A stretch of DNA of 64,000 nt, taken from assembly GCA_030424715.1 (NCBI GenBank), contig JAUHWH010000005.1, forward strand, positions 186,001 through 250,000. Direction: 5' to 3'. This document shows, piece by piece, positions 1 through 20,624 of this stretch. The notes under the pieces are model-generated. The model was not told the DNA's origin. It did no database searches and saw only the letters and a program-made list of their open reading frames with translations. Positions within the stretch are counted from its first letter, which is position 1. Every line of letters starts with the position of its first letter. A program made the position numbers and the translations under genes. This DNA comes from Bdellovibrionia bacterium (GTDB lineage Bacteria; Bdellovibrionota; Bdellovibrionia; Bdellovibrionales; JAGQZY01).

Positions 1-1974
1 GCCGCCATTGAATCCATTCTGCGTGGCGAGAATCGCGTGCTGATTACACAAGCCACTGGTACCGGCAAGACCTTCACAAGCATGCAACTTGTTTACAAGC
101 TCTGGCGATCCAAAATATGCAAGAAAATCCTTTTTATTGTCGATCGTAACCTTTTAGCTGATCAGGCATTTAAGGATTTTGACAATGCCATGGACAAGGA
201 TGCCTGTTACCGACTCTCACCAAAAGATAAAGTTTTTCCGTTATCCCGTGATTTGTACTTTGGTATTTATCAAACTCTTGTCGGACAAGATGATGAAGGC
301 AACGAAGAAGGTCGGCCAGATCGCTATAAAGAATTCCCAGAAGACTTTTTTGATCTCATCGTCATTGATGAAGCCCACCGAGGTGGCGCCAACAAGGCTG
401 GTAGCTGGTTCAGGCTGTTGCAACATTTTGATTCAGCAATTCAAGTGGGCTTAACAGCAACCCCCAAGCGTGATGAAACCAACGACACCTATGCTTACTT
501 CGGGCAACCCGTTGTCAGCTACTCACTGAAAGACGGGATTGAAGATGGTTACCTCAGTCCCTACATCATTAAACGAGTAACATCGAACATAGATGCCCTC
601 GGCTACCGCCCTGATCATGAGGGAATAAAAGATGTTCGAGGCCAAGAAATTGAAGTCAAAGACTACATGACTCCCAATTTTGAGCGAGAGTTAAGTATTC
701 CCCAGCGCACAAGAGCTTTTGCCTACCACCTAGTGAGACATCTTTTTGCTACGGACCCTTTAGGAAAGACCATTGTATTCTGCGTGGATCAGCAGCACGC
801 ACTGGACATGGCAAAGTACTGCCAAGAAGCCTTTATCAAACATAAAGAGAAGCTCGGTATCTACTACGAGGGTAATTATGCGGTCAGAGTGACTGGTAAT
901 GACCGTGACCCCAACGGTAAATACCCAAACCTTGAGAAGTTTCAAGATTTAGAATCTCATGAGCCCATCATCGTAGCGACATCTAAGCTCTTAACCACTG
1001 GTGTGGATGTAAAAACGGTTAAGAATGTTGTGATCTTTAGAAACATCGGCAGCATGGTGGAATTTAAGCAGATCATTGGACGAGGGACTCGCACCTATGA
1101 CCACAGAAACCCGGTTAAGGAGAAACTGGGCTTCTTTATTCTAGAATATGCCAACCATTCCACACAGCTCTTTAACGATCCCGATTGGGATGATGAGCCT
1201 GGTGATATTGTGGAAGAAGGCGCCATCGTCGTCGACAGTGATGCTGATGAGGCTACCGAACCAGATGAAAACACTACTGTGCCTACGCCGGAAGCTGAGG
1301 ATGATGAGCAGATTGACTCCGCGGGTATTTATGAAGAAACCGATGAAGAAGAACTTCAGCATATTAGACATCGAATGTCTGAAGAGTTCTTATCTGGCCG
1401 AGTAAATATGGCAGCGGAAAGCATTGCCTTCACTGGCCCTGACGGCAAGCCACTCACACCTGATAAATATATCATCTACCAATCAGAAGCATTGAAGAAG
1501 CAGTTCCAAGATATCAGGCAGCTGAACAAGGCTTGGAAAACAGCCAAAGACCGAAAGCACTTCATAAAAGAAACCGCACCTGAAATCGGCCTTAACCTAG
1601 AGGCCCTGACACAAATATTTTTTGAACGACATAAGATCCGAGATGTGGACGCTTTGGATGTTCTCGGACACCTAGTCTTCGGCGAGGAGTTCCTCACCAA
1701 GGGCGAGAGAATTGCAAGAGCCAAGCAGGTTCAGTCGAATTTCTTTAACCAACAAAGTGAAGCCACAGCAAAAATCGTGAATGATATTTTAGATGTTTAC
1801 CGAGAAACAGACTTCAATGCGCTAACTACTAGCAGAGAGTTTTGGCAGACACCGAAGCTACGCAAACATGGCTCGATCAATGAAATTCAAAAGGCTGTGG
1901 GCGGCTCAGAGCAGTTGGTGGCGATGGTTAACGGTCTACAAGAAGCCTTGTACGACGAGAGGATAACAGCGTAG
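1..1974 (+). CDS. hsdR: Type I restriction enzyme, R (motor/nuclease) subunit, 5' truncated by window
   Basis: The reading frame is open from base 1, so the N-terminus (normally carrying the PD-(D/E)XK nuclease) lies outside the window; 657 residues are visible. Superfamily 2 helicase motifs are clear: Walker A ATGTGKT near visible residue 18, VIDEAHRGG near 121, GLTATPKR near 150, and QIIGRGTR further on. An acidic stretch (about residues 400-450) precedes the C-terminal helical domain that docks on the methylase. HsdR translocates unmethylated DNA and cuts it, in complex with HsdM and HsdS. It is the first visible gene of a four-gene operon; the next start codon touches its TAG stop. Confidence 0.95.
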   Translation, partial: AAIESILRGENRVLITQATGTGKTFTSMQLVYKLWRSKICKKILFIVDRNLLADQAFKDFDNAMDKDACYRLSPKDKVFPLSRDLYFGIYQTLVGQDDEGNEEGRPDRYKEFPEDFFDLIVIDEAHRGGANKAGSWFRLLQHFDSAIQVGLTATPKRDETNDTYAYFGQPVVSYSLKDGIEDGYLSPYIIKRVTSNIDALGYRPDHEGIKDVRGQEIEVKDYMTPNFERELSIPQRTRAFAYHLVRHLFATDPLGKTIVFCVDQQHALDMAKYCQEAFIKHKEKLGIYYEGNYAVRVTGNDRDPNGKYPNLEKFQDLESHEPIIVATSKLLTTGVDVKTVKNVVIFRNIGSMVEFKQIIGRGTRTYDHRNPVKEKLGFFILEYANHSTQLFNDPDWDDEPGDIVEEGAIVVDSDADEATEPDENTTVPTPEAEDDEQIDSAGIYEETDEEELQHIRHRMSEEFLSGRVNMAAESIAFTGPDGKPLTPDKYIIYQSEALKKQFQDIRQLNKAWKTAKDRKHFIKETAPEIGLNLEALTQIFFERHKIRDVDALDVLGHLVFGEEFLTKGERIARAKQVQSNFFNQQSEATAKIVNDILDVYRETDFNALTTSREFWQTPKLRKHGSINEIQKAVGGSEQLVAMVNGLQEALYDERITA

Positions 1975-2379
1975 ATGTGCACCGATAAGGACAAAATCGT
2001 AAAACTACATGAGGACATCCCCACAGTTGTCGATGTCGAAGCTCACCCTGATGAAATAGCGGATGTAGATGCTGAAACGCTAGCAATTATGAAAGCACGC
2101 CTGGAGGGAGTAGACTTTGAAGAGCTTTATGACAATAACGAAGTTCTTGCCCAATCGCTCGAAGTAAAGTTGCAACGGAAAAAACTGGCATCAGTTTTCG
2201 CATGCTTTGCGGATCTTGAAGGCGGATTCCTAAAAGATAAAATGAAACCAGAGCTTCAACGAGAGTTGAGATATGAAGGATTTGAGCCCAGCTTTATTTG
2301 GCCGGAGATTACCACGATTGATGAAATCACATTTGAGGACATTGCAGAGCACCTCAATTTCAGGAAGGGAAGGTTATGA
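1975..2379 (+). CDS. Unknown 134-aa protein inside the hsd operon
   Basis: This acidic 134-residue protein starts at ATG directly after the hsdR stop and ends in an ATGA overlap with hsdS, so it is translationally coupled to both. A GAGAGG about 12 bases upstream may serve as its ribosome binding site. I recognise no domain. The first 45 residues are rich in Asp, Glu and Val; the middle has a Lys/Arg patch and FACFADLEGG. There is no signal peptide or membrane segment. Its place between R and S genes suggests a role in assembly, control or inhibition of the restriction complex; that is inference from context only. It is too short and dissimilar to be a detached HsdR C-terminus that I can recognise. 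Confidence 0.7.
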   Translation: MCTDKDKIVKLHEDIPTVVDVEAHPDEIADVDAETLAIMKARLEGVDFEELYDNNEVLAQSLEVKLQRKKLASVFACFADLEGGFLKDKMKPELQRELRYEGFEPSFIWPEITTIDEITFEDIAEHLNFRKGRL

Positions 2380-3851
2380 GCGATTTACCTGATTCGTGGT
2401 CAAGGCCCAGTCTTGGTGATGTGATTGACATTCAGGGAGGGAGTCAACCACCCAAAAAGTACTTCATTGAGAAGCCAAAAGCTGGATATGTACGAATGCT
2501 ACAAATTCGTGATTTCAAGAATGATAATAACCCAGTTTATATCCCAAAAGATAAAGCTAAACGTTGGTGCGAAGTGGACGACCTATTGATTGGGAGATAT
2601 GGAGCCAGCGTAGGTCGAATTTGTACTGGTAATTCGGGCAGCTACAATGTGGCCTTGGCTAAGGTGATCTTCCCTCGCAACCATATTGACCGCCTTTGGA
2701 TCGAGTACTATTTACGAGCCCCTGAGTTTCAAAGGAATATAACTACATTGGGAGGTAGAGCTGCTCAGGCTGGTTTTAATAAAAATGATCTGGCCAGCAT
2801 GAACTTCCCTGTACCCCCGTTGAGTGAGCAGAAACGGATAGTAAACAAAATCGAAACCTGTTTCAAGAAAGTCGACGCCACAGATGAAGCGCTTAATAAG
2901 GCAGAGGTGCTGATTGGCAAATACAAAGAGGCATTGCTGGCAAAAGCATTCCGTGGGGAGCTGGTGCCACAAGACCCAAATGATGAGCCCGCCAGCCAAT
3001 TGCTTGAGCGCATCCGCACCGAACGAGAACAAGCCGACACAGGTAAAAAATGCAAAAAGAAAACCGAATTTACCCTCATCACCGACGACGAGAAGCCCTT
3101 CGATATACCTGACTCCTGGCAGTGGGTACGGTTAGAAGATTTGTTTTCGGTGCAGACTGGGGCCACTCCTAAACGAGATAACCAAATTTATTACCGAAAT
3201 GGTAAGATTCCATATGTTAAAACGGGATTAGTACAGAACTGTGAAATACATAGTTCTGATGAGTTTATAACTGAGCAGGCAGTTGCTGAAACAAATGTGA
3301 AAGTCTTCCCTGTTGATACCATTTTAGTTGCGATGTACGGCGAAGGTAAAACGCGAGGGCAAACAGGAATCTTGAAGATCGAGGCTGGCACCAACCAAGC
3401 GTGTGCGGCACTAGTAAATACACAACTTGATTCCACACTTAGAGAATATGTTTTAGAATGGCTGAAGTTCAGGTACGGTGTTTTGCGAGACAAAGCAGAA
3501 GGCGGGAATCAACTTAACCTCAACCTAGAAAAGGTTAAGAAGTTTGTAATGCCTCTCCCCTCAACGAGACAAGTTGAGACAATAACTAAAAAGATCGGCA
3601 CTCACCAAGCTCAGATTAATGCTCTTGAAACTAATCTCGAAGAAGTTAGATCACACATCAAAATGGAACAGGCTTCAGTTCTCGCTAACGCATTCCAAGG
3701 CAAACTTGTAGATCAAATAGAATCCGAAGGTACAGGCCACCAACTCCTCGAAGAAATCCTCACCGAGAAAGCTAAGATAGAAGCTGCAAAATCAAAAAAG
3801 AAGAAGACATCAAAGAAAGCCAAGAAGAAAACTAGGAAGAAGAAATCATGA
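2376..3851 (+). CDS. hsdS: Type I restriction-modification specificity subunit S
   Basis: At 491 residues it has the usual HsdS layout: N-terminal target recognition domain (about 5-150), a conserved helical spacer with PLSEQKRIV and the repeat-like EALLAKAFRGELVPQDP (about 150-225), a second recognition domain opening DSWQWVRLEDLF (about 245-400), and a C-terminal helix. It sets the bipartite DNA sequence recognised by the complex. Its start has a strong GGAAGGGAAGG ribosome binding site and overlaps the previous gene by four bases (ATGA). The last 20 or so residues are almost entirely Lys, Arg, Thr and Ser, an unusually basic tail for an HsdS. It ends in an ATGA overlap with hsdM. Confidence 0.95.
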   Translation: MSDLPDSWSRPSLGDVIDIQGGSQPPKKYFIEKPKAGYVRMLQIRDFKNDNNPVYIPKDKAKRWCEVDDLLIGRYGASVGRICTGNSGSYNVALAKVIFPRNHIDRLWIEYYLRAPEFQRNITTLGGRAAQAGFNKNDLASMNFPVPPLSEQKRIVNKIETCFKKVDATDEALNKAEVLIGKYKEALLAKAFRGELVPQDPNDEPASQLLERIRTEREQADTGKKCKKKTEFTLITDDEKPFDIPDSWQWVRLEDLFSVQTGATPKRDNQIYYRNGKIPYVKTGLVQNCEIHSSDEFITEQAVAETNVKVFPVDTILVAMYGEGKTRGQTGILKIEAGTNQACAALVNTQLDSTLREYVLEWLKFRYGVLRDKAEGGNQLNLNLEKVKKFVMPLPSTRQVETITKKIGTHQAQINALETNLEEVRSHIKMEQASVLANAFQGKLVDQIESEGTGHQLLEEILTEKAKIEAAKSKKKKTSKKAKKKTRKKKS

Positions 3852-5305
3852 CCTCCAAACAAGATTTATCCAATATCATTAAGCGCTGTTGTGACATATT
3901 GAGAACAGATGACGGTATATCAGGTGCCATGCACTACACTGAGTCCTTGTCATGGATTCTTTATCTCAAGTTTTTCGCAGACAAAGAGAGGGAGCGAGCA
4001 ACACTTGCTGAACTTGAGGGTGACGATTACTCACCTATACTTCAAGACAAATACCGCTGGGATGTATGGACAGCTACTAAAGATGGCCTTACTGGTAAAG
4101 ACCTAATCAAGTTCATCAACGATGATTTGTTTGAATACCTTGGTAGCCTAAAGGGCGAGAAAGAAGGCGATCCCAGAGATGTGGTTAGCGCTATATTTCG
4201 CAATACTCAAAATCGCGTGAACTCCGGCTATCTACTTCGGGACGTTATTGAGGAGGTCAAAAAAATTCACTTTGATGTGGGCGAGGAAGCCTTTGCAATA
4301 AGCCACATCTATGAAGACTTGCTAAAGAACATGGGTGAAGGTGGCGGAAACGCTGGCGAGTTCTATACCCCTAGAGCCTTGATTTCGACAATGGTGAAGA
4401 TGATTGATCCAAAAATAGGTGAAACTATCTACGATCCAGCTGCTGGTACGGGTGGATTTTTGGCTGAGGCCCACATGTATCTAGAGCCACAAGCAAAAAC
4501 TCCTGAGCTTCGTAAAATACTAAATAGCAGAACTTTTTTTGGTAAAGAGAAAACTCCGCTACCTTTTGTACTTTGCCTTATGAACCTCACACTCCACGGT
4601 ATGGACTACCCTAAGATATTTAAGGAAAACACCCTAGCTTCTGACATTCGACAAATCGACGACCAGGACAAGTACGATATTATCTTGGCGAACCCACCCT
4701 TTGGAGGCAAAGAGCAAGCGATCATCCAAAAGAACTTTCCTGTGGAGGCTACAGCTACAGAGCTTTTGTTTCTTCAACATATCGAGAAGACGTTAAAGCA
4801 AAATGGCCGTGCAGCTATCGTGGTACCAGAGGGAATTCTGTTTCAAACTAACTCTGCATACAAGCAAGTAAAAGAGAAGCTCCTAAAAGAGTTTAATCTG
4901 CATACAGTCGTAAGCCTTCCAGCAGGTATCTTTCTGCCTTATTCAGCAGTTAAGACCTCAGTCATTTTGTTCGACAAAAAATCTCGCACCAAAGATGTTT
5001 GGTTTTATGAGGTTGGCTTGATTGATGGCAAAAAGTTAACTAAGAAATCTGGCATCACCCAGGGCCACTTTGCTGGTCTGCTGAAAGAACATAAGGGCCG
5101 CAAAGAAACTGATCATAGCTGGCTAGTCCCTGTCGATAAAATTCTTGAAAACAATACCAACCTCTCTGCTGCCCACTACAACCCACATGGTGTAGAGGAG
5201 GAGGAGCTTCTTGAGCCAGAACAGTATGCCGAAGAGATCAAAAGCCTATTAGCTTCAGCAATGACCAATGTGGATGAGCTTATTCAAGAATTAGGCAAAA
5301 AGTAA
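3848..5305 (+). CDS. hsdM: Type I restriction-modification DNA methyltransferase subunit M
   Basis: This 485-residue N6-adenine methyltransferase has the HsdM N-terminal helical domain (about 1-130), the SAM-binding motif DPAAGTGGFL near residue 198 and the catalytic NPPFGG motif near 281. It methylates host DNA at the sequence chosen by HsdS and forms the core of the restriction complex. Length is normal for the family and no key motif is missing. It is the last gene of the operon, coupled to hsdS by a four-base overlap. No clear terminator follows in the 56 bases before the next gene. Confidence 0.95.
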   Translation: MTSKQDLSNIIKRCCDILRTDDGISGAMHYTESLSWILYLKFFADKERERATLAELEGDDYSPILQDKYRWDVWTATKDGLTGKDLIKFINDDLFEYLGSLKGEKEGDPRDVVSAIFRNTQNRVNSGYLLRDVIEEVKKIHFDVGEEAFAISHIYEDLLKNMGEGGGNAGEFYTPRALISTMVKMIDPKIGETIYDPAAGTGGFLAEAHMYLEPQAKTPELRKILNSRTFFGKEKTPLPFVLCLMNLTLHGMDYPKIFKENTLASDIRQIDDQDKYDIILANPPFGGKEQAIIQKNFPVEATATELLFLQHIEKTLKQNGRAAIVVPEGILFQTNSAYKQVKEKLLKEFNLHTVVSLPAGIFLPYSAVKTSVILFDKKSRTKDVWFYEVGLIDGKKLTKKSGITQGHFAGLLKEHKGRKETDHSWLVPVDKILENNTNLSAAHYNPHGVEEEELLEPEQYAEEIKSLLASAMTNVDELIQELGKK

Positions 5306-5361: not shown

Positions 5362-5784
5362 ATGCAGGTAAAGTACCTTATGCATTCGGATGATAAAAAA
5401 ACTAAATTTATTGAACTAAGAGCAGATGGGCTGAGTTTTGAAAAGATCGCCGCAAAGATCAAAGTTTCAAAGCCAACATTAATCAAATGGAGTCGAGAGC
5501 TGGCTACTGACATTCGCAACAGCAAAGCTATGCGAGTCGACACCCTTAGAGAAGAATATTTAATCAACAAGGAAGAGAAATTAAAACGTCTTAAGAGCAA
5601 CTTACAAAAAGTAACAGATGCCTTAGAAAAAAGAAATCTAACTGATGTGCCAACCTTGAAGCTATTTGAATTAGAAGAGCTTTTAATTAAACAGCTCAAT
5701 AGCGAGTTAAGAGTGACCCTAAAAGATACTGTTGATCTCATGGATACACTTACATCGGGCTCCGAGTTCACCTGGCAAGCCTAA
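5362..5784 (+). CDS. Helix-turn-helix protein with coiled-coil C-terminus
   Basis: This is a small 140-residue protein. Residues about 12-45 form a homeodomain-like helix-turn-helix (LRADGLSFEKIAAKIKVSKP), as in resolvase/transposase and small terminase N-termini; residues 60-125 are Lys/Glu/Leu rich and probably coiled-coil. A second ATG at 5380 is a possible start. It sits on the same strand as the hsd operon but 56 bases downstream, facing an oppositely oriented gene. Such proteins are frequent in phage-derived and integrative elements, so a DNA-binding role in the island is likely; the exact family is not identified. Confidence 0.6.
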   Translation: MQVKYLMHSDDKKTKFIELRADGLSFEKIAAKIKVSKPTLIKWSRELATDIRNSKAMRVDTLREEYLINKEEKLKRLKSNLQKVTDALEKRNLTDVPTLKLFELEELLIKQLNSELRVTLKDTVDLMDTLTSGSEFTWQA

Positions 5785-5817: not shown

Positions 5818-6456
5818 TCAAATGTAAAAAAGTGGCGGCATAGGTTCCGACTTTAATTGATTCAAAAACGCATCTCGTTTTATTTTAAGTTCATCCGACC
5901 AAATCCTGACTGCTGGTTCATTCTCACTAACCATAAGCCCTCTTAACAACCGATCACTCATCTGTAGAGCCCAATCTTTATCTTCACCCGTAGATGGCCT
6001 AGGTATCTCAAAATTAAGGTATTTAAGTCGCTCGGGGAATTGCTCAAGAAACTCATCAAGCTCCCCTCCTGGCATCAGAAACTCACGAAGCCACTCTCTG
6101 CTCGGACGATTATTTTTCATCTTCTCAATTACTCTCACTATTTCAGTTGCCGCTTCTCGTGGGCACCTTGGAGAGCCTGTTTTCTTGTGTACTTTATCTT
6201 CTTCAGGAATACTCGCCTCTAAAGCCCTACATTTTTGATCAAACTCTTTAATTAGGGCATCGATCGGACCGCGAAAATCACGTACAACCAATCCGTATTC
6301 ACTAAACAGATCCAGCTGCTTTTTAAAATAGCTTCGATAGATAGTAAGTCTCTTTACCAATGCGTTTCTGGAGTCACTTTCATATTTTGGAAATAAGCTC
6401 CAATAAAATGAGGCACGAACATACTCTTTGAAATGCTTAATGTCTTCCTCAGTCAC
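5818..6456 (-). CDS. Unknown 212-aa island protein
   Basis: The frame is open to a GTG at 6501, but the GTG at 6456 is preceded by AAGGAG with a 7-base gap, so I take it as the start (212 residues). The protein is soluble, predicted mostly helical and rich in charged residues; no catalytic motif, signal or membrane segment is visible. It includes RASFYWSLFPKYESDSRN near the N-terminus and ends in PPLFYI. It converges on the helix-turn-helix gene to its left and is divergent from the nuclease-excisionase gene to its right. Function unknown; probably island cargo. Confidence 0.55.
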   Translation of the reverse strand: MTEEDIKHFKEYVRASFYWSLFPKYESDSRNALVKRLTIYRSYFKKQLDLFSEYGLVVRDFRGPIDALIKEFDQKCRALEASIPEEDKVHKKTGSPRCPREAATEIVRVIEKMKNNRPSREWLREFLMPGGELDEFLEQFPERLKYLNFEIPRPSTGEDKDWALQMSDRLLRGLMVSENEPAVRIWSDELKIKRDAFLNQLKSEPMPPLFYI

Positions 6457-6688
6457 CGATCCACTCCTTGTGGGGGAGCCGCAACTACCAAGTCCTGACA
6501 CAATGTTTCGTCACAGTAACTGCAGCTCTGAAACCATGCTTCGTATCACGGTACTCATAGGCGATCAAAGGCAATGGAATAAGCCATGTGCCTTTGCGGA
6601 AACCGGATTTGGCCAAATCCTCAATAATAACAGGGCTTCCGAGCTTCTCTGCTAGTGAGTGGACATGGGGACCTATGAGGAAAATGAA

Positions 6689-7651
6689 ATGAAAGAAACA
6701 AATAGAGAGATACTTAATGAGTTTATGGCTGAGAGAAGTGAAGCAAAGAAACTGGCGGTAAGGCGGTATATCATCAGCATGGTTGAGGCTGTGCCTACCA
6801 ATGAATTTGCCCTACCCCACTACCCAGAAAAACTAAGACCAATTCGACCACCTTCAGAATTATTAAAGATGCAGTATGAGCAGCTCACAACTGGGCTCAA
6901 CATGTTCTACTCAGAAGCAAGGCAACGAACTTTCTACGAAAGACAAATTGAACAGTTTATTACTGATAGTACTAACCTAAGCTTTGAAACTAACACCTGG
7001 ATTGGTGGACGCAATTTTGACTTCTTCTTCGACTCTATCGGCGGTGATGTTTGTGAAGAGTATGGGGAGCGCTTTAAAGGGCTGGCAATTGAAGTCGACG
7101 GTCCCATTCACGATACCCAAGCAAAAATGGGCAAGGACCTAACAAAGCAAGAGCTTCTGCACTCTCTGGATATTGCTATGATAACGATTGAGAATATTGA
7201 CGTTAATCATCAGCAGATAATACAGCTTTGCCAGAGCCTCAAGGAGGCCCCTAGATTAGACTCAAGAGCCAGGGGAAGAGTTCGCAGGAAAGTTTACTTA
7301 GAAACTATTCTCAGCAGAAGCAGTGATGACATGTTGAGCTTCATTTTTGGCTGTGATTTCAAAGGCTTAACGAAGGAGATCAAAAAGCGATCCAAGCAGA
7401 ATAGTTGCCTCAAGGTCGAAATTGGGCTAGTTCAACCAGGTGGTTCTTTGATAATTGAAGAGAAAGAATGGTTAAACTCTGACCAAGCTGCCAACTATGT
7501 GGGTATTTCCAAAGCCTCGCTATTGAATTTAGCCAGCCTGGGGAAAATCAAATACTACAAGTTTGGTCGGAGAAATCGTTATAGGACTGATGACCTTAAA
7601 GAACTTCTTCTTGCACAACCAAGAGGAGGTTCCAATGGGAATCAAATTTAA
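6689..7651 (+). CDS. Vsr/DUF559-like nuclease fused to an excisionase-type helix-turn-helix
   Basis: The frame opens at GTG 6659, but ATG 6689 has a better ribosome binding site (GAGGA, about 8 bases upstream), giving 320 residues. Residues about 75-175 look like a PD-(D/E)XK endonuclease of the DUF559/Vsr type: NFDFFF (Asp 111), then AIEVDGPIH (Glu 135, Asp 137, His 141), a KD pair and ITIEN. From Trp 261 a MerR/excisionase-type helix-turn-helix follows: WLNSDQAANYVGIS, then KFGRRNRYR. In this C-terminal domain 29 of 47 positions match the free-standing excisionase at 20666-20911. The integrase start and its GAGGAGG site lie inside the last codons, so the two are coupled. The fusion is continuous, without a stop or frameshift. 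Confidence 0.75.
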   Translation: MKETNREILNEFMAERSEAKKLAVRRYIISMVEAVPTNEFALPHYPEKLRPIRPPSELLKMQYEQLTTGLNMFYSEARQRTFYERQIEQFITDSTNLSFETNTWIGGRNFDFFFDSIGGDVCEEYGERFKGLAIEVDGPIHDTQAKMGKDLTKQELLHSLDIAMITIENIDVNHQQIIQLCQSLKEAPRLDSRARGRVRRKVYLETILSRSSDDMLSFIFGCDFKGLTKEIKKRSKQNSCLKVEIGLVQPGGSLIIEEKEWLNSDQAANYVGISKASLLNLASLGKIKYYKFGRRNRYRTDDLKELLLAQPRGGSNGNQI

Positions 7652-8726
7652 CGAAAAGAAAAAGGTATGGGAGGCGTTTTATAGTAAGCACCACCCTATT
7701 ACTAGGCAGTCTGTTGGTTTACGCCGTCACGCTAAGACGAAAGCTGAAGCTAAACGGATTTTGCCCGAACTAGTTGTGCAAGTGCAACGCAAGCTCGATC
7801 GGCAAATCACCCCCACGTGGCAAGAGGCTATTATGGGGTGTGAAGAGTCCATGAGGGTATCTGGGTTAAACGAGAAAACGATTAGTACTTACACTAAATG
7901 TTTATTGACCCACACTCTCACTTCGTGGGGCAGCAGGCTCGTAACCGAGATTACTACTGAGGACATCCGCAACCTGGTGCTTAAAAACTTAGCTGATAAA
8001 TCCGAAAGTCATAAAAAAAATATGATTAAGTTTATTAGGAAGGTTTTCACACACCTAGTTGAAAAGGGTGCTCTTAATCGTGACCCCACACCAAATATGA
8101 AGTTTAAGGTTGGTGATAAAATTATGCCTGTCTTAACTTTGTCTGAGGCCAAACAGTTACTTGAGTCTGCTAAGGAACTTGATTCACCCTGGTACTACCA
8201 TTGGGTGTTAGCTCTTTACACAGGGATGCGTAACGGAGAGTTGTTTGCTCTCCGGTGGTCTAAAGTAAGTTTTGAGACTGGTATGATTAAGGTCGACTGT
8301 TCCTGGAACAACATTGATGGTTTCAAGTCCACCAAATCAGGTGATGACCGCATCATTGAAATTGCACCTACACTGAAGTCAGTACTGATGGAATTGAAGA
8401 TCAAGACCGGCAATGGTGAGTTTGTCCTTCCAAGAATGTCTAAGTGGAGTAAAGGAGAGCAGGCACGTGAGTTAAGGAAAACACTTTCAGGACTAGGTCT
8501 TCCGATCATTAGATTTCATGACCTGAGAGCTACATGGGCGACTATTCTACTGTCCCAGGGTATACCGCCGATCAAGGTAATGGCCATGGGTGGGTGGAAG
8601 GATATGAAGACCATGATGGTCTACACCCGAAAAGCAGGAGTAGATATTAAAGGAAGTCTGAATAAGTTGACTCTACACTCGCCTAGACGGTCAGCTAGCC
8701 AAGTCGTTAATTTTCCTAGCCTTTAG
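7635..8726 (+). CDS. int: Tyrosine recombinase (integrase) of island 1
   Basis: Start ATG 7635 is supported by GAGGAGG nine bases upstream, inside the excisionase gene; the product is 363 residues. It has an N-terminal Arm-binding region (about 1-60), a SAM-like core-binding domain (60-150) and a catalytic domain with Arg 199 (TGMRNGE), Lys 231/234 (KSTKSG), His 295 and Arg 298 (HDLRAT), Trp 321 in the usual His/Trp position and nucleophile Tyr 330. All key residues are present, so it should be active. It is colinear without gaps, and about 55% identical by hand count over 330 residues, with the integrase at 20901-22001. It catalyses integration and excision of the element. Confidence 0.93.
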   Translation: MGIKFNEKKKVWEAFYSKHHPITRQSVGLRRHAKTKAEAKRILPELVVQVQRKLDRQITPTWQEAIMGCEESMRVSGLNEKTISTYTKCLLTHTLTSWGSRLVTEITTEDIRNLVLKNLADKSESHKKNMIKFIRKVFTHLVEKGALNRDPTPNMKFKVGDKIMPVLTLSEAKQLLESAKELDSPWYYHWVLALYTGMRNGELFALRWSKVSFETGMIKVDCSWNNIDGFKSTKSGDDRIIEIAPTLKSVLMELKIKTGNGEFVLPRMSKWSKGEQARELRKTLSGLGLPIIRFHDLRATWATILLSQGIPPIKVMAMGGWKDMKTMMVYTRKAGVDIKGSLNKLTLHSPRRSASQVVNFPSL

Positions 8727-8772
8727 GCGTCACCTATTATCGCTAGAAAGTATTACTTGTTCAGTTTACTTG

Positions 8773-8835
8773 CCATATTAACGAAATATGCTACCTTCCG
8801 TTAATATAAATGCTATACTCACTTCATATTAATGG
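8773..8835. promoter_or_regulatory. Probable operator/promoter of the Fic gene
   Basis: A perfect 9-bp inverted repeat ATATTAACG (8775-8783) and CGTTAATAT (8799-8807) is followed by a third half-site ATATTAATGG (8826-8835) overlapping the ribosome binding region. A likely -10 box TATACT lies at 8814-8819 with TACCTT 16 bases upstream. The repeats bracket the promoter, as expected for repression. The Fic protein carries a C-terminal winged helix, so autoregulation is a reasonable inference. Confidence 0.5.
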
Positions 8836-8849
8836 AAGGGAAATGTAAT

Positions 8850-9995
8850 ATGCCTCAAAACGAGACAAGGTCTGGAGTATTTAATGAACACTCAGATGGG
8901 TATAAATACTTCATTCCTCATCCATTGCCTCCTACACCTGAGGTTGATCGTGATAACGAAATGGATCAGCTTATGGATCATGCTAATAGGGCTTTGGGGA
9001 GATTAGATGGCGCTTCAGAAACGTTACCAAATCCAGATTTGTTTGTATCAATGTACGTTAGAAAAGAAGCTGTGCTTTCAAGCCAAATTGAAGGCACGCA
9101 AGCTTCTCTCTTAAATGTACTAGAATTTGAAGCAGACACTGGTGTTGATGAGAGTGTTAATGATGTCGAAGAAGTTATTAATTATGTAGCCGCTTTAAAT
9201 CATGGCCTGGAAAGACTGGAAGAATTGCCAGTCTGCCTGCGTCTAATTAAGGAGATACATAAAAAACTCATGGAAGGAGTTCGCGGAGGAAATAAGCAGC
9301 CAGGTCAGTTCAGAACAATCCAAAACTACATTGCTTCTGACTCTAGCATCCCTATTCAAAAAGCCAAATTTGTACCTCCATCTCCTGAAAAATTAGGTGA
9401 GGTCTTAAGGCAGTTTGAAGAGTTTGTGCATAGTGAAGAGCCATACCCTTATCTAATCAAGGTTGGTTTGCTTCATGCACAGTTTGAAACTATTCACCCT
9501 TTTTTAGATGGAAATGGACGAGTGGGAAGGCTGCTAATTACTTTTTTACTTTGTGAGAAAAATGTACTTCACAGGCCACTCCTTTACCTCTCTCACTATT
9601 TTAAACAGAATAGGATGGAGTACTATCAGCACCTTCAAAATATTCGTTTTAAAGGAGATTGGGAATCATGGTTGAAATTCTTTTTGAAAGGAGTCTATGA
9701 AGTTTCACAAGAGGCTACTGAGACCGCCCGAAAAGTAATGAATTTACGTGAGGAACATCGAAGTCTAATGATTGAAAAAATGGGGCGAACACCAAATGCT
9801 TTGAAGCTTCTAGAAAAGCTCTATTGGCGCCCCTTAGTAAAAGTAGAAAATGTAATGGAAATAACTGGCCTGGCTTACCCTAATGCAAATAAGTTAGTCG
9901 CCGACTTTGTTAAACTCGGTATTCTTGAAGAAAAAACGGGTCAGAAGCGTAATAGAAAATTTGTTTACACAGATTATTTATCACTATTCGACTAG
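8850..9995 (+). CDS. Fic family AMP-transferase with N-terminal inhibitory helix and C-terminal winged helix
   Basis: ATG 8850 follows GGAAGGG, giving 381 residues. The Fic motif HPFLDGNGRVGR is intact at 216-227 (catalytic His 216). The N-terminal inhibitory motif SSQIEG at 77-82 (class II Fic, Glu 81) should block ATP binding until released. Residues about 315-381 form a winged helix-turn-helix, typical of the Fic/DUF4172-like group. Fic enzymes transfer AMP from ATP to Ser/Thr/Tyr hydroxyls on target proteins. No separate antitoxin gene is adjacent, consistent with built-in inhibition. It is monocistronic, with its own operator upstream and a strong terminator downstream; it directly follows the island 1 integrase. 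Confidence 0.88.
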   Translation: MPQNETRSGVFNEHSDGYKYFIPHPLPPTPEVDRDNEMDQLMDHANRALGRLDGASETLPNPDLFVSMYVRKEAVLSSQIEGTQASLLNVLEFEADTGVDESVNDVEEVINYVAALNHGLERLEELPVCLRLIKEIHKKLMEGVRGGNKQPGQFRTIQNYIASDSSIPIQKAKFVPPSPEKLGEVLRQFEEFVHSEEPYPYLIKVGLLHAQFETIHPFLDGNGRVGRLLITFLLCEKNVLHRPLLYLSHYFKQNRMEYYQHLQNIRFKGDWESWLKFFLKGVYEVSQEATETARKVMNLREEHRSLMIEKMGRTPNALKLLEKLYWRPLVKVENVMEITGLAYPNANKLVADFVKLGILEEKTGQKRNRKFVYTDYLSLFD

Positions 9996-10081
9996 TACGG
10001 TGGTGTTTTGTAGTTAATCTATATATTAAGTTAATATTTACAATACGCTACAGCTACCTCATTGTCTCCACCAAACGATGC

Positions 10082-10114
10082 AAATTCCCAGAGAAATTTG
10101 GGAATTTCTTTTTT
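10082..10114 (+). terminator. Intrinsic terminator after the Fic gene
   Basis: AAATTCCC (10082-10089) pairs with GGGAATTT (10100-10107), 8 bp, followed by CTTTTTT. It is a standard Rho-independent terminator on the + strand and would insulate the downstream defence operon. Confidence 0.8.
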
Positions 10115-10212
10115 GGAAAGTAATTTTAACTAGTTAACTGGAAGAAGACTTCCAAGTCGGCTGGCCAAATATCACTCTAAATCACCCCAAATAACGGGTT
10201 TTGCAGGATCTT

Positions 10213-10262
10213 GTGGTGAAGGGCTGTAGTGAGCAAGATTTTTGTAGTGAATAAATCACCAC
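10213..10262. repeat. Heptamer GTRGTGA repeats upstream of the DUF4297/HerA operon
   Basis: GTGGTGA (10213-10219), GTAGTGA (10226-10232) and GTAGTGA (10244-10250) lie in direct order, and TCACCAC (10256-10262) is the exact inverse of the first. Four heptamers within 50 bases, 40 bases before the start codon, look like a binding-site array for a regulator. Confidence 0.45.
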
Positions 10263-10301
10263 GACTGACAAGTATAGTTATTTTGTTTACTATATCTCCC
10301 T

Positions 10302-11531
10302 ATGACAACAAGGTCTGCAGAAGCATCATTAAGAGGTTACCTATACCAGTTTGACAAAACTGCATCTGAACTTTTGAATCTTTCTCAAGGACAATCATTA
10401 ACAGTTGAAGGTGTTGAGGACATAGATATTTCCTCATCTGGCTTAACAACGGCTATCCAATGCAAATACCTCGAAGCTCAGAATTTTTCACCGTCACGTA
10501 TTCGAAAACCACTAATAGCCATGCTTGACCATTTTGTATCGAAAGCAAGTTCCAATTTCAAATATCACCTTTATGCTTATTTTTCTGATCAGGACAATGG
10601 ATCACATAAAATGTCTCTAGACGAGTTGAAGTCTTGCTTAACTTATACAGAAAAGAAAAAAGAAATTTGCTACTACCAAAAATATTCAATTACTGACCAA
10701 AAATTAAAAGCATTCTTACGCAATTTAAAAATTGAATTTGGTCCCAAAATTGAAGAACAAAAAGGTGTGCTGATAGATCAGTTAAAGAATGAGTTTTCTT
10801 GTAACAATGACGAAGCCGAAATCGTTTACTATGCTCAAGCTTTGAACTTAATATTTAACATAGCTACTCAGAGAACTAAAACAGAAAGACAACTCACAAG
10901 AAGACAATTTCTCCTGAATATCGATAAAAGTGAAGTTGTCTTTAGTGCCTTATACAGCAAATATAAAGGGAAAGTCGCATATATTAAAACTCTCAAAAAA
11001 TTAATACTAGAGTCTGATGGACTAGCAAGATATAAAACAAAGGCTTTGTACATAGATATCGATTCATGGGGAACACCTAAAGTAATTGCAAACCTTTTAT
11101 CTGAGATTAACTCTAAGCACTATCGTGAAGGCCATGCTTTTTGGGACTCTCAGCCTTGGCTAACGATTATTCGTGCAGATGAAAATTCTCTTAAGGAAAT
11201 TAAGCAACACTTAATAAATAAAGGCATCTGGATAAATGATGGATTTGAAACAATAGATTTTTCTCCAGATCGCTTCAGTGAAGCTCCTTTGAAGCTCCGT
11301 ACAAGCAATGGGCAAGGACAAAAAATTGAGAAGAGCTCCTATCATATGAGAGTTGTTTCTGCTGAAACTTTTGAGAATTATTGGGATGAGCTCCCAAGCC
11401 CTGATGTTGTATTTAGTTTTTTCGATGACGAGCTGTATCTATCGTTAAAAGAGGTCACTACCGATTATTTTGATCTCTCTGCCATAGATTCAGTTCGAGA
11501 TATTAAATCCATACTTATTGGAGATAAATAA
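10302..11531 (+). CDS. DUF4297/Cap4-like nuclease subunit of a HerA-associated defence system
   Basis: A 409-residue soluble protein. The N-terminus carries the pattern of DUF4297-type PD-(D/E)XK nucleases: GYLYQ (12-16), then VEGVEDIDI (Glu 36, Asp 40, Asp 42), then IQCKYLEA (Gln 53, Lys 55), i.e. an acidic pair followed by QxK. The rest is helical and unassigned. It ends directly before the ATG of a HerA-type ATPase with a TAA-ATG junction, so the two are coupled. DUF4297-HerA and SIR2-HerA pairs are known anti-phage systems in which the ATPase assembles a large complex with the effector nuclease. No strong ribosome binding site is seen at its own ATG. Family assignment rests on motif spacing, not a search. 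Confidence 0.68.
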   Translation: MTTRSAEASLRGYLYQFDKTASELLNLSQGQSLTVEGVEDIDISSSGLTTAIQCKYLEAQNFSPSRIRKPLIAMLDHFVSKASSNFKYHLYAYFSDQDNGSHKMSLDELKSCLTYTEKKKEICYYQKYSITDQKLKAFLRNLKIEFGPKIEEQKGVLIDQLKNEFSCNNDEAEIVYYAQALNLIFNIATQRTKTERQLTRRQFLLNIDKSEVVFSALYSKYKGKVAYIKTLKKLILESDGLARYKTKALYIDIDSWGTPKVIANLLSEINSKHYREGHAFWDSQPWLTIIRADENSLKEIKQHLINKGIWINDGFETIDFSPDRFSEAPLKLRTSNGQGQKIEKSSYHMRVVSAETFENYWDELPSPDVVFSFFDDELYLSLKEVTTDYFDLSAIDSVRDIKSILIGDK

Positions 11532-13277
11532 ATGAGTGCAGAAGAGAAAGAAGTATTTAAAATTAATTGTGTAACCCCAACTTTAATTCAGATTGAAGTT
11601 ATTGATATTGATGAATTCCGCAAAAGCCAATCAGCATCTATTTCAATTGGCACTTATCTTAAAATCTCAGATGACAATAATATTTCTGTTGTCGCTTTAA
11701 TAAAGAGCTATCGGATTAAGGACTCAGCAGTTGGGGTAGAGGCAGCAACAACGGATTCAAGGATTTTTATAATAGATGCTGAACCAGTTGGCTTTATAAA
11801 TGCAGAAGGTAAATTCAGGCGAGGAGGTCAGCAAATTGCCATACCACCGTCAAATGTAGAAGTTGCTTCAGAAGAAGTGCTAAAAAGTATTTACGAGTCA
11901 GTTGAAGATGAAAAGGAGTTTTCATTTGGAACTCTTATGCAAAACAAGAGCATTCGTGTAAAAGTCGATGGGGATAAATTTTTTAGCAAGCACATTGGAG
12001 TTGTAGGTTCGACTGGGTCAGGAAAATCGTGCACTGTCGCAAAAGTAATCCAAGAGGCGGTAGTAGCTGGCGGAACTAGCAAAAAAGCTGGTGCTTTAAA
12101 CAACTCCCATATTGTAATATTTGATTTACATTCTGAATATAAGACAGCCTTCCCAGATGCCAATTATCTGTCCATAGAGAATTTAGTTTTACCCAGCTGG
12201 CTTTTGAATGCAGAAGAACTTGAAGAAATATTTATTGAGAGTAACGAGCAAAACTCACACAATCAAATATCCCAATTCCGTCAGGCTGTGGTTCTAAATA
12301 AAAGAAAACACAACCCTGATGTTGATAAGGTATCATACGATACACCAGTTTATTTTAATGTGAATGAGGTCTACAATTATATTTATAATTTGAACAATGA
12401 GATGATTGGCAAAAACCCTGGTGAAGGAAAGCCTAAACTGGCGGATGGAACTCTAATTGATAATCGAGAAGACAAATATTTCGATGCAGAGTTGGCTTTT
12501 GCTCCACAATCACAAAAATCAGGAGAAAAGGCATCTGGTGGACCATTTAATGGAGAATTTGACCGCTTTGTAATGCGATTGGATGCGAAAAGAAATGATT
12601 CTCGATTAGATTTCTTGATGAACCCAAAAATTGAAGGGAAGGAGTGTAAAACCGAACACTTAGAAGAGACTGTCAGGCAGTTTCTTGGGTACGCAAACAA
12701 GAGTGAAGCAAATATAACCATCATTGATTTAAGTGAAATCCCTTTTGAGGTTCTTAGTATTGTTGTTTCATTAATTTCCAGAATTCTATTCGATGTGTTT
12801 CTTAAAATTAGAAAGACCAAATCAACGGATGACGAGACTCCTTTTTTAATTGTTTATGAGGAAGCCCACAATTACGTTCCGCGAAGCGAAGAGGCAAAGT
12901 ACAAAACCGTGAAAAAGTCCATTGAGCGAATTGCGAAAGAAGGTAGAAAATATGGTTTATCATTAATGATGGTAAGCCAAAGACCTTCTGAGATTTCAGA
13001 AACAATATTTTCACAATGTAATAACTTTCTGGCCATGCGCTTAACCAATCCGACAGATCAATCATATGTGAAGAGATTGTTGCCTGATGTTGTCAGTGCA
13101 ATTACTGAAAATCTACCAGCTCTTGAAAAACGTGAAGCACTTGTCATTGGAGATTCTGTGGCGATTCCAACACTAGTTTATGTAGATACTCTTGAAAACA
13201 AACCAAGATCTACTGATGTGGAATTTCAAACAGAATGGAAAAAGGACTGGGTAGATATAGACTTTTCAGTTCTTTGA
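11532..13277 (+). CDS. HerA-family hexameric ATPase of the defence operon
   Basis: The 581-residue protein begins with a HAS-barrel-like region (about 10-120), then the RecA-like HerA/FtsK-type motor: Walker A GSTGSGKS at 159-166, a large insertion, Walker B FLIVYEEAH at 438-446, then GRKYG (471-475) and SQRPSE (482-487), hallmarks of HerA translocases. It starts directly after the preceding stop with GGAG eight bases upstream. In archaea HerA drives NurA nuclease; in bacterial defence islands it partners SIR2 or DUF4297 effectors, as here. It is the last gene of the operon; a long non-coding region follows. Confidence 0.88.
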   Translation: MSAEEKEVFKINCVTPTLIQIEVIDIDEFRKSQSASISIGTYLKISDDNNISVVALIKSYRIKDSAVGVEAATTDSRIFIIDAEPVGFINAEGKFRRGGQQIAIPPSNVEVASEEVLKSIYESVEDEKEFSFGTLMQNKSIRVKVDGDKFFSKHIGVVGSTGSGKSCTVAKVIQEAVVAGGTSKKAGALNNSHIVIFDLHSEYKTAFPDANYLSIENLVLPSWLLNAEELEEIFIESNEQNSHNQISQFRQAVVLNKRKHNPDVDKVSYDTPVYFNVNEVYNYIYNLNNEMIGKNPGEGKPKLADGTLIDNREDKYFDAELAFAPQSQKSGEKASGGPFNGEFDRFVMRLDAKRNDSRLDFLMNPKIEGKECKTEHLEETVRQFLGYANKSEANITIIDLSEIPFEVLSIVVSLISRILFDVFLKIRKTKSTDDETPFLIVYEEAHNYVPRSEEAKYKTVKKSIERIAKEGRKYGLSLMMVSQRPSEISETIFSQCNNFLAMRLTNPTDQSYVKRLLPDVVSAITENLPALEKREALVIGDSVAIPTLVYVDTLENKPRSTDVEFQTEWKKDWVDIDFSVL

Positions 13278-14071
13278 TACTCTCCGGCTTACCCCCTACC
13301 CTAGTAGATCTCTCGTTGGCGATAGCCAAACTCCAGACTTAGCCCCCTTATGAGCACCACTAATAGCACCTGAGAAAATGCGATTAGTACAACCCACCAG
13401 TTAAGAACAGGTGCCGTTAGTCCCTGTCCACAGCCATCGACCGTTATCTGGAGGTGAAGGTTGCCCTTCATGTAATCACATCCCCAAGTCGTCGGCTCGA
13501 CATGGCTATACCCCTGTCTCAGTTGAATCAATCCATTGAATAACTAAAACGTCGACTGATCAGCCTCCTGGATAGTAACTACCCAGCCCCTACTGACACC
13601 TCGTCACGAAGTGGAAATGTGAATGAGTTATTAGCTGTCTACTCCCACCAAAAATTTAAACAACAGGTCCCCCTGAAGTTTCGCCCAGCAACTCACAAAC
13701 TGTTTGGCAAACCTTGTTAGGTATTTGCACCTTGCCTGATTTTACGCCCAGCAGGCTACGCATTGGCGTTTTTAAAACAGAGCAATCAAAACCCGTATTT
13801 TTAAGAAAAGAAAGAGAATAATTTTAAAAGCAAAAAATAATTTAAAAATTTAGCAAGCGCTAAGGGGAAAACAGCAATTTTCAAAACAAAGGGTTCGGAA
13901 AATTTTTTCGACCAGTCTCTTGAGGTCTGAACCAATTCTTTAACAAACCTTTGCGTTTTGGCGCGGGCCTTTGCCCCCGTTTTAAATTTAAAGCTCTTAG
14001 AGGGCGTTTATGGAGGCCGCTTTTTTAAACTATTTTAAAATCGTTTTCCATTTTAAAAGAAAGGGGCTTTT
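13278..14071. other. 794-base non-coding region, AT-rich and dense in TTTAAA palindromes
   Basis: I see no convincing gene here. The left part (13.28-13.65 kb) is ordinary in composition; the right part (13.77-14.06 kb) is very AT-rich. TTTAAA occurs nine times at 13655, 13771, 13823, 13841, 13981, 13987, 14024, 14034 and 14052. A small GGGC-CTTT-GCCC hairpin lies near 13966. The region could be a replication or transfer origin, a regulatory RNA locus or decayed DNA; nothing decides between these. Confidence 0.5.
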
Positions 14072-14275
14072 ATGAAAGAAAAACAAACGACAAAGGCTTT
14101 GATTGGTAAAGAGGCAGAAGAGTTACTTAAAAAAATTACCAAGGAGAAAAATGGCCCTGAGGCCAACAAAACTTTTGCAGCTCTCAGTGGATTGGCCGTT
14201 GCATCCGTCATAGATGATGAGAGTCTGGCAAAAAGACTATTATCCTTAGTAAAACATGTGAGAACCAGTAAGTAA
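14072..14275 (+). CDS. Small unknown 67-aa island protein
   Basis: ATG 14072 has a good ribosome binding site (GAAAGGGG). The 67-residue product is basic at the N-terminus and helical (EAEELLKKITKEK, then AALSGLAVASVIDDE); it resembles no family I know and has no signal peptide. It lies alone after the long AT-rich region and converges on the exported-protein gene at 14359-15090. Short lysine-rich proteins of this kind are common in mobile elements as regulators or accessory proteins, but no function can be assigned. Confidence 0.55.
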   Translation: MKEKQTTKALIGKEAEELLKKITKEKNGPEANKTFAALSGLAVASVIDDESLAKRLLSLVKHVRTSK

Positions 14276-14336
14276 TACGATGGACGTTTTCCTTAAAGAG
14301 AATCCAATTAGCTGTGGTCAGACAAATTTTCCAGAA

Positions 14337-14358
14337 AACGTCGTCAACGTCGTTTCTT
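14337..14358. repeat. AACGTCGT repeat, copy 1
   Basis: AACGTCGT occurs twice in tandem (14337-14344 and 14346-14353). The second copy extends to AACGTCGTTTCTT (14346-14358), an exact 13-bp match to 20631-20643 in the same orientation. It lies between convergent genes. Confidence 0.45.
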
Positions 14359-15090
14359 TTAAGATTTTTCTCTCAGCTTACGGATGGCTGCGGCAGGTTG
14401 CTCAAGAAAGTTGTGTATGAACATGGTCTTATCTGTACCACTTACAGATAATCTGTTTGGCTCAATCTTTCCTTTCCCTTTAGAAGTGAACTGCCAGGCA
14501 ACAGTGAAGTGTTTACCAGTTACCTTGTCATTTACTTTTGCTTTTAAAATCCATGCTTTGCCATTTTTCTCCCATTTAGGATTGGCATTGAGAACTCTAT
14601 AAAACTCATAAAGCTCAACGGCCGCTATAGACACAGTTTTGTAATTAGAGTCCTGAGTTTGAAACTCAGATTTCAAGAACTCTTGGTTTGGCCCAGAACT
14701 CTTGTGCTTTTTAAGCAGTGAAGCAATCATCCGGCCTTTGCCGCCTTTGGCTTTTTTTCTGGAAGCTACAGATTTATTTACCTTCTTATTGAAAAGTGGG
14801 CCCCAAGAAACAAACTCATGACGAATTCCTCCCAGTTTCTTGACCTTTATGTCCACCTTGCCAACTGTGCGAAGATCAATACCCATATCTATATATTTCT
14901 TGATGTTGGATCCTTTTTCTATTCGAAAAATATTCTGCTCACCACCATCATAGTTTTCCAAGGTAATCTCATAACCAAAAGCGCTACCAAGCCAAGTAAC
15001 ATCAGTTATTTTTCCCTTAAGTGTAGTTTCTTCCTGCGCCAGCAACGCAATGGGCATTAGCAAAAAGACTACTAACAATACCTTATTCAT
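14359..15090 (-). CDS. Exported protein of unknown function
   Basis: A 243-residue protein with a clear signal peptide (KVLLVVFLLMPIALLAQ, cleavage near residue 18). The N-terminal third looks like a small beta-barrel region (LKGKITDVTWLGSAFGYEI); the centre has a basic linker rich in Lys, Gly and Ser (about 110-125); the C-terminal half contains AWQFTSKGKGKIEPNRLSV and may be a second beta domain. It starts 10 bases after the XRE regulator gene, so the two are one transcript. No catalytic motif is visible. An exported protein paired with a repressor in a mobile element could act in surface exclusion or transfer, but that is inference. Confidence 0.65.
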   Translation of the reverse strand: MNKVLLVVFLLMPIALLAQEETTLKGKITDVTWLGSAFGYEITLENYDGGEQNIFRIEKGSNIKKYIDMGIDLRTVGKVDIKVKKLGGIRHEFVSWGPLFNKKVNKSVASRKKAKGGKGRMIASLLKKHKSSGPNQEFLKSEFQTQDSNYKTVSIAAVELYEFYRVLNANPKWEKNGKAWILKAKVNDKVTGKHFTVAWQFTSKGKGKIEPNRLSVSGTDKTMFIHNFLEQPAAAIRKLREKS

Positions 15091-15100
15091 ACTTCCTCCT

Positions 15101-15406
15101 TCAGTCTTTCGACTCTTTTTCGATTGTTAATCTGTACCTCATGTCCCCATCTACAAACTGGCTGGAGAACAAAATGGAATTTCCAGGCTTATCGTCTTTC
15201 ACATTAAACAAGAGTGTCGTCACAGATAGGCTAAGGTGGTCAGCAAGACGTTTTATTAAGTGAAGATTCTTTGCTGTTGGTAAAACTCCCTGTGTGCAGT
15301 TATGCAGAGTGGACGTTGGTACACCACAAGCTTTAGCTAGAGAATTGACGGACTCATTGCGCGCTTTTAATTCTCTGTTTAAAACTTGTGATAACCTAAC
15401 TTCCAT
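15101..15406 (-). CDS. XRE-family helix-turn-helix regulator
   Basis: The 101-residue product has an XRE (Cro/CI) helix-turn-helix over about residues 5-65 (NSLAKACGVPTSTLHNCTQG) and a short C-terminal tail (FSSQFVDGDMRYRLTIEKE). It is the first gene of a two-gene minus-strand operon with the exported protein. Two inverted repeats lie 24-81 bases upstream of its start (15430-15487), so negative autoregulation is likely. It resembles the short regulators of phage and integrative-element control regions. Confidence 0.85.
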   Translation of the reverse strand: MEVRLSQVLNRELKARNESVNSLAKACGVPTSTLHNCTQGVLPTAKNLHLIKRLADHLSLSVTTLLFNVKDDKPGNSILFSSQFVDGDMRYRLTIEKESKD

Positions 15407-15429
15407 AACATCCCATCAATCGGTTGTTC

Positions 15430-15487
15430 ATCCGAGGTCAATTAGATAAATTCCATGGCTCGGATAATTGTCCCATCCGTGGGATAA
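15430..15487. promoter_or_regulatory. Inverted-repeat operators upstream of the XRE regulator
   Basis: TTGTCCCA-tccg-TGGGATAA (15468-15487) is an inverted repeat of 8-bp arms with one mismatch. ATCCGAG (15430-15436) and CTCGGAT (15459-15465) form a second 7-bp inverted repeat. Both lie in the promoter region of 15101-15406 and are good candidates for its operator. Confidence 0.5.
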
Positions 15488-15502
15488 ACACATTTAATAA
15501 AC

Positions 15503-15530
15503 CGCACCTAAATCGGCCGTTATAGGTGCG
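15503..15530 (-). terminator. Hairpin between resolvase and XRE genes
   Basis: CGCACCTA (15503-15510) pairs perfectly with TAGGTGCG (15523-15530) across a 12-base loop. On the minus strand it lies downstream of the resolvase gene and is followed by GTTTATT, so it may terminate that transcript. The 9-mer TAGGTGCGC recurs at 15597-15605, within the end of the resolvase gene. Confidence 0.45.
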
Positions 15531-15577
15531 CTTTGGTCGGCATTGCTAAACCACCGTAATCACCCGGCCCAACTTCA

Positions 15578-16192: not shown

Positions 16193-16338
16193 TACAACCG
16201 TCCTTTTTTGCTCCCTTTTTAAGCATGCACTTTATTTTCCAAAATGAAAAGCGAAAAATTTTAAATAATTTTAATGAGTTAGAGTTAAACTTATTTTATT
16301 TATCTAGTCTCCCCCTTCAACCGATACATAAAAGTATT

Positions 16339-17934: not shown

Positions 17935-18066
17935 TAATTCATTTTGCGCAACGCTCCATCCCCATTTTCATGTTTTTCCCTGAAAATTTAAAGCTACTAA
18001 TTTCAATAGTTTAGTAACGAGTAACTCGGATCGTTTTCCTACTAGGACATAACCATAGGAGGAAAA

Positions 18067-18735: not shown

Positions 18736-18736
18736 T

Positions 18737-18769
18737 GTCCGGTAATTGTCCGGTCGTTGTCCAGAATTA
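18737..18769. repeat. Three tandem 11-bp repeats (GTCCGGTNNTT)
   Basis: GTCCGGTAATT (18737-18747), GTCCGGTCGTT (18748-18758) and a degenerate GTCCAGAATTA (18759-18769) follow one another exactly one helical turn apart, starting two bases after the stop codon of the 222-aa gene. Iteron-like arrays of this spacing place bound proteins on one face of DNA. Confidence 0.55.
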
Positions 18770-18776
18770 AAAAAAG

Positions 18777-18823: not shown

Positions 18824-18830
18824 TAAATTT

Positions 18831-20614: not shown

Positions 20615-20624
20615 CGTCGTTATC

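Follow-up and report, generated by a model that had tools for sequence, protein, structure and literature searches.

A predicted Vsr/I-Bth0305I-fold nuclease in the excisionase-integrase cassette of small Bdellovibrionota genomic islands

Small genomic islands spread defence genes, and how the smallest of them move and are copied is often obscure. An island in a Bdellovibrionia bacterium (GCA_030424715.1, contig JAUHWH010000005.1, positions 186,001 to 250,000; this whole analysed stretch of 64,000 nucleotides is hereafter the window) poses the question in an unusual form, as a nuclease and an excisionase are encoded by one gene directly before the integrase. What would a nuclease do on the protein that directs excision? 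The original prediction held that the fusion could couple the cutting of competitor or att DNA to mobilisation, or tie a defence function to retention of the element.

Beginning with a GTG at 6659, the reading frame stays uninterrupted until the stop at 7651; counted from the ATG at 6689, it encodes 320 amino acids (6689-7651). It joins what is predicted to be an entire Vsr/I-Bth0305I-fold endonuclease (residues 1-241; 6689..7411, forward strand) to an entire MerR-type excisionase (residues ~250-320), immediately 5' of a tyrosine integrase gene (7635..8726, forward strand; PF00589, 2e-21). The integrase ATG at 7635 lies inside the fusion gene, and the excisionase part is thus encoded directly 5' of the integrase. 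This excisionase (MerR/HTH_17) part, residues 258-314 (7460..7630, forward strand), matches Pfam HTH_17 (PF12728) at residues 261-309 with 39 bits against a cut-off of 27, and stays just under the cut-off of TIGR01764 (28.7 vs 28.8). Homology to the free excisionase of the neighbouring island, originally given as 29 of 47 matches, was borne out at 31 identical residues of 53 (58%, E 3e-19). Structural matches of the C-terminal domain were BldC and the excisionases Pukovnik Xis, RdfS and GIsul2 Xis, with Z scores of 6-7.3 that are low because the domain is small.

The N-terminal part is predicted to be a nuclease of the Vsr/I-Bth0305I-type PD-(D/E)XK fold with conserved catalytic residues, its core spanning residues 79-190. 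An alignment of 20 nuc homologues shows E84, D111, E135, G138, H141, D150 and T206 (fusion numbering) to be invariant; codons are at 6938-6940 (E84), 7019-7021 (D111), 7091-7093 (E135), 7109-7111 (H141) and 7136-7138 (D150). Two of the three residues named beforehand, D111 and E135, are among them and the third is not, D137 being Asp in 17 of the 20 homologues but Asn in the other three; the alignment adds E84, H141 and D150 as invariant residues beyond those originally named. A profile of the 20 sequences reached 3hrl (E 8e-4) and the catalytic domain of I-Bth0305I (3r3p, E 1.4e-3) over the whole core, and E84, D111, E135, H141 and D150 are also present in 3hrl. Built on an alignment of three sequences, the modelled structure of the window protein (mean pLDDT 68.6, pTM 0.63) contains the alpha-beta-beta-beta-alpha-beta core expected for the Vsr/I-Bth0305I (EDxHD) fold group, and over residues ~79-190 it matched 3r3p (Z 11.0), 3hrl (Z 10.8) and E. 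coli Vsr (1cw0, Z 9.4), as foreseen. In the Pfam scan no family exceeded its cut-off on this part; DUF559 (PF04480) scored 12.5 bits on the window domain, below the gathering cut-off of 20.6, while other nucs matched it with E-values down to 1.8e-4.

Both halves of the fusion correspond to complete free proteins. The unfused nuclease of locus L076 aligns from fusion residue 1, and its final residue corresponds to residue 241; for the free Xis of L038, the alignment begins at fusion residue 229 with the second Xis residue and continues onward. The fusion occurs in one of 20 nuc loci and in the window's genome alone, and this genome also encodes an unfused nuc set (L036) on an 8.8-kb tRNA-Ser island. 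Such rarity, and the few bases that separate nuc and xis elsewhere so that one indel could join them, might point to an assembly or sequencing error or to the neutral loss of a stop codon, with no meaning beyond the cassette. We regard this as distinctly unlikely, given the single open frame that spans the boundary between the two parts and a joined sequence that aligns to the end of a free nuclease and the start of a free Xis. Of the refuting case named beforehand, that the fusion exists only here through a recent deletion, half applies: it was found only here, but two complete proteins were joined with no domain loss. A possible internal TTG start (7448..7651, forward strand; about 67 residues), with AGGTGG upstream as read from the sequence, could still yield a short free Xis. 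We tentatively interpret the fusion, jointly with the whole explanation preferred below, as an in-frame joining of nuc and xis, the two genes that open a conserved nuc-xis-int operon. As it was seen once, the fusion carries little weight on where the nuclease acts, and the system to be explained is the nuc-xis-int cassette with a partner gene, X, rather than the fusion itself.

This cassette emerged from searches of the whole protein against 99 relatives, followed by a five-member and then a 20-member profile against 369 genomes of the phylum. About 20 good nuclease-domain matches were scattered over ~5% of these Bdellovibrionota genomes, all unfused except that of the window. A recombinase adjoins nuc or the X-nuc pair in 19 of 19 loci with enough flank (L070, cut by a contig edge, was left out of the count). 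The search for the same domain pair elsewhere thus returned no second fusion, only the unfused nuclease beside a recombinase; the proposed coupling to mobilisation is supported by this arrangement more strongly than by the fusion, every testable locus having either an xis and int operon or an adjacent serine integrase. Xis and integrase genes directly follow most unfused nucs in the order nuc-xis-int, overlapping or abutting (in 11 loci, the distance from nuc to xis is -94 to +33 bp and that from xis to int is -56 to +138 bp). Variants include nuc on the strand opposite to X, xis and int (L081, L083), the order int-xis-nuc (L037) and an Xer-like recombinase with an Xis-like gene and a second tyrosine recombinase (L080). 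In L077 and L084 a large serine integrase follows nuc; that of L084 matches the TP901-1 integrase (E 7.5e-9), and that of L077 matches the A118 integrase (E 1.5e-4) and the L084 protein (E 3e-23).

Tyrosine integrases of different nuc groups are 16-30% identical and the nucs 16-40%; L079 and the window share 38% in the nuclease and just 22% in the integrases. Distances of nucs and integrases correlate weakly (Mantel r 0.24-0.27, p ~0.04-0.05). As its integrase partners are unrelated, the nuclease has been combined repeatedly with different recombination modules. We had also considered nuc as part of one integrase lineage; this was ruled out by these unrelated partners and because 26 of the 30 loci retrieved as closest to the window integrase lack nuc, the other four having it. 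Relatives of nuc, sought with full-length or nuclease-only queries, were found neither among phages (50,697 records) and plasmids (72,556) nor in IMG/VR viral contigs, and a pattern scan of genome contigs gave two loci only, both already in the phylum search. The cassette nuc-xis-int is shown as an arrangement of genes, and we tentatively take it for the mobility cassette of small Bdellovibrionota genomic islands. Its nuclease fold, its excisionase and its kind of island have been seen before, and the combination is a new variation on them; the open-licence literature and databases searched contained no description of it.

Gene X (5818..6501, reverse strand, in the window) encodes 194-269 amino acids; at least 12 loci have it in head-to-head orientation to nuc, the window and the reversed L081 and L083 included. 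Its relatedness is weak yet significant and runs in chains (window-L070 E 6e-13; L036-L076 6e-14; L071-L070 5e-13). A ten-member profile additionally recovers L077, whereas it misses the X-position genes of the loci L081 and L083, which resemble each other (E 3e-12); those of L034, L035 and L082 did not match and were left out. Across 155 genomes (141 of the order and 14 others), all profile matches lie beside nuc; ten of them are the profile's own members, and the independent evidence is L077 together with the lack of matches elsewhere. X had no match in NCBIfam or PADLOC, the window copy none in Pfam or PHROGs, and no X was found in viral contigs; a single-sequence model of X is meaningless (pLDDT 42).

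The 12 intergenic regions between X and nuc (86-201 bp; for L077 from the X start to the assumed nuc start) are otherwise unalignable and were screened for short motifs in common. On the nuc strand, 11 of 12 contain GTGCY, compared with 1.7 in shuffles, and the window copy is GTGCC at 6588..6592 (forward strand). Since the data that yielded the motif also served to test it, the fair test is the shuffle comparison over all motifs, in which its z of 6.3 exceeds 3.6, the largest z of any tried motif in 60 shuffled sets. Expectations from real sequence were 1.5 (random windows of the same loci) and 2.0 (other intergenic regions), and 11 was reached in none of 200,000 simulations. Two copies 14 bp apart are found in L070 and L071, and L076 and L077 have the palindromic GAGCACGTGCC. 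Among loci without a recognised X, GTGCY is absent from the nuc strand in the 300 bp 5' of nuc in L035, L037, L073, L082 and L084, and one copy each is present in that stretch in L034 and L080. The site is mostly missing where X is unrecognised, which ties it to the X-nuc pair. Gene X, the GTGCY site and the unfused nuc of the same genome were all absent from the original prediction.

These features bear on whether nuc is simply a free-standing homing-type endonuclease that rides the integrase operon, its window copy having captured, to recognise its target, a helix-turn-helix domain that is no longer an excisionase. The closest structure is indeed the catalytic domain of the homing endonuclease I-Bth0305I, and the full I-Bth0305I has added DNA-binding regions (PMC3943268). 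A conserved partner, a conserved intergenic site and the place in an operon, on the other hand, do not suit a wandering homing gene, and the fused domain is the sole Xis-like sequence detected beside the window integrase; we consider this origin quite unlikely.

Five unfused nuc islands are delimited by exact repeats of tRNA 3' ends and measure 4.4-14.7 kb: L036 (8.8 kb, tRNA-Ser), L073 (5.2 kb, tRNA-Glu), L078 (4.4 kb, tRNA-Leu) and, at tRNA-Met, L074 (14.7 kb) and L079 (12.2 kb). The cargo differs from island to island and includes restriction, AAA+HNH, ParE and lipoprotein genes. When 28 cargo proteins of the five were scanned with Pfam, the scan, from which a few large or spanning ORFs were left out, gave no primase, relaxase, secretion family or FtsK match. 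In the window, two tandem islands lie behind a tmRNA whose 3' end is 982 bases left of the window (read in L088; matched to G001-G004), the first taken to run from -982 (L088) to 8726 and the second from 8727 to 22001, each ending in an integrase. There was no exact att repeat between the tmRNA 3' end and either integrase gene end, and the relatives examined showed no empty site for these islands. Between the tmRNA 3' end and X-nuc-xis-int, the first carries type I restriction-modification genes as cargo (R, small ORF, S, M; 1..5305, forward strand; PADLOC). It also encodes a small HTH protein that resembles small terminase subunits, a weak assignment (5362..5784, forward strand; PHROG 4102, E 5e-4), with a homologue near nuc in L071 (E 1.9e-27). 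Another small terminase-like protein lies on a nuc-bearing island at L122:4817-5203 (PHROG 309, 1.3e-15). Such proteins hint at packaging by helper phages.

The second window island has unfused genes, xis at 20651-20911 and integrase at 20886-22001 (forward strand). It also carries a Fic protein followed by a DUF4297-HerA pair (8832-13277; PADLOC 2.7e-70, 5.9e-200), a candidate two-gene defence system, and a small serine recombinase (15578-16192) of resolvase type by sequence reading. An AAA ATPase and HNH nuclease pair (Septu-like) is located at L122:2411-4665 and a type IIG-like restriction enzyme at L074:8341-11574, on the 14.7-kb tRNA-Met island. Small XRE-type regulators, several of them related by phmmer, were found on a number of nuc-bearing islands, at L036:7931-8269, L073:9013-9333, L122:5997-6341 and L037:2422-2913.

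Might X and nuc then themselves be an anti-phage defence pair, cargo on defence islands that lies near int merely since the islands are short? Known defence cargo does occur on these islands (type I and IIG restriction, the Septu-like AAA+HNH pair, ParE toxin). Cargo would be expected anywhere in an island, yet nuc adjoins the recombinase at every locus with enough flank, usually in its operon. Moreover, PADLOC gave no convincing match for nuc, its hits to the 20 nucs being weak and scattered (best 3.5e-5, a homing endonuclease; 3/20), and none for X. We thus judge a defence pair unlikely, and the defence role that the fusion had suggested is not supported.

A different role may be read from the slot that nuc occupies. 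In several nuc-less sister islands this slot is filled by primase-helicase-like genes (DUF5906, D5, DUF3987 or VapE), as it is in the second window island (VapE/DUF5906-like, 19208-20614, forward strand). Since nuc takes the place of these genes and of RepSA in actinomycete integrative elements, a role in replication suggests itself. Many other nuc-less sister islands have a ~400-amino-acid protein without a Pfam match in the slot before xis-int (L093:3-1241, L095:2876-4069, L096:1-1263, L106:2-1270, L109:2984-4087), which may be a replication protein, and the notion of a replication slot is thereby only partly supported. Known rolling-circle initiators use a tyrosine, unlike the Vsr-type nuclease fold, which also speaks against such a role.

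The explanation that we favour, as possible rather than probable, is that nuc is an excision-coupled nuclease that acts on the island's own DNA within a nuc-xis-int mobility cassette. X, or a protein tied to X, would bind GTGCY and switch the operon. With the operon active, the island would be excised by Xis and Int (or by the serine integrase) while Nuc is made simultaneously, and Nuc would cut or nick the island's own DNA site-specifically, most likely starting the copying or processing of the excised circle. In the window, the DNA-binding domain of Xis would carry the nuclease to the att region, a natural tether in a single case. The weak co-inheritance of nuc and int in the Mantel figures counts against this explanation. 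A variant, rather unlikely in our estimate, is that X and Nuc, together with the GTGCY region, constitute a novel replication-start or processing unit of integrated elements in which X binds the site and Nuc, produced along with the excision proteins, nicks the freed circle so that its copying begins, the chemistry of the recombinase being irrelevant.

The strongest rival appears to be an Odn-like role in retention or exclusion, in which the nuclease would cut empty att sites, or competing islands at their att or origin DNA, and so keep the island in place, with the fused Xis as its address. The window fits this in that its tandem islands have related integrases (55% identical) and Xis domains (58%), and Odn offers the example of an established nuclease joined to a DNA-binding domain similar to that of the element under attack (PMC8263062). 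Unfused nucs lack an Xis domain, however, the islands use different tRNA att sites though nuc is one family, and GTGCY is missing from four of five delimited att ends, all of which makes retention rather doubtful.

With a nuclease that accompanies chemically different integrases, a partner gene seen nowhere but next to it and a DNA site in common, predatory bacteria and related lineages present a concrete cassette that lends itself to testing. Should the nuclease act on the excised island as we propose, it would represent a new coupling of excision to replication or retention, and the natural fusion offers a handle on the site of nuclease action.

Among known systems, the nuclease fold is like that of I-Bth0305I and the EDxHD homing endonucleases and of Vsr, and the catalytic-site region aligns; in contrast to the homing endonucleases, nuc is not known to lie in an intron and sits in a recombinase operon beside X. 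The DUF559 (PF04480) and DUF2726 families have the E-x-D-G-x-x-H signature and a later Asp in common with nuc, with 3hrl (ngo0050) as a structural match; the window protein differs in longer flanking helices, another gene neighbourhood and its score below the Pfam cut-off. The C-terminus of the fusion is like the MerR-type excisionases Pukovnik Xis, RdfS and GIsul2 Xis in fold and sequence, but these are free proteins whereas the window Xis is fused to a nuclease. Odn of phage ICP1 is a nuclease with a RepA-like domain as address (PMC8263062) and, like the window gene, couples a nuclease to a DNA-binding domain also used by the machinery of a mobile element itself; unlike the window fusion, it combines a GIY-YIG type nuclease with a RepA_N domain and is phage-borne against the satellite PLE. 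In actinomycete integrative elements (AICEs) of the pSAM2 type, replication initiators and integrases, serine ones included, are exchanged between elements (PMC3218068). Nuc is not one of the RepSA, RepAM or Prim-pol proteins of AICEs, as judged by its Vsr-type fold and the Pfam scan, where it matched no replication family (a set without RepSA's own profile); RepSA is a rolling-circle initiator of the phiX174/pC194 type. AICEs also carry a Tra translocase, whereas Pfam found no transfer gene in the nuc-island cargo scanned. Nevertheless, the rep-xis-int arrangement of AICEs in Actinobacteria places the gene of a nicking protein in the xis and int operon of an integrated element together with a dedicated regulator, and the cassette described here does likewise, with nicking by nuc as the predicted counterpart.
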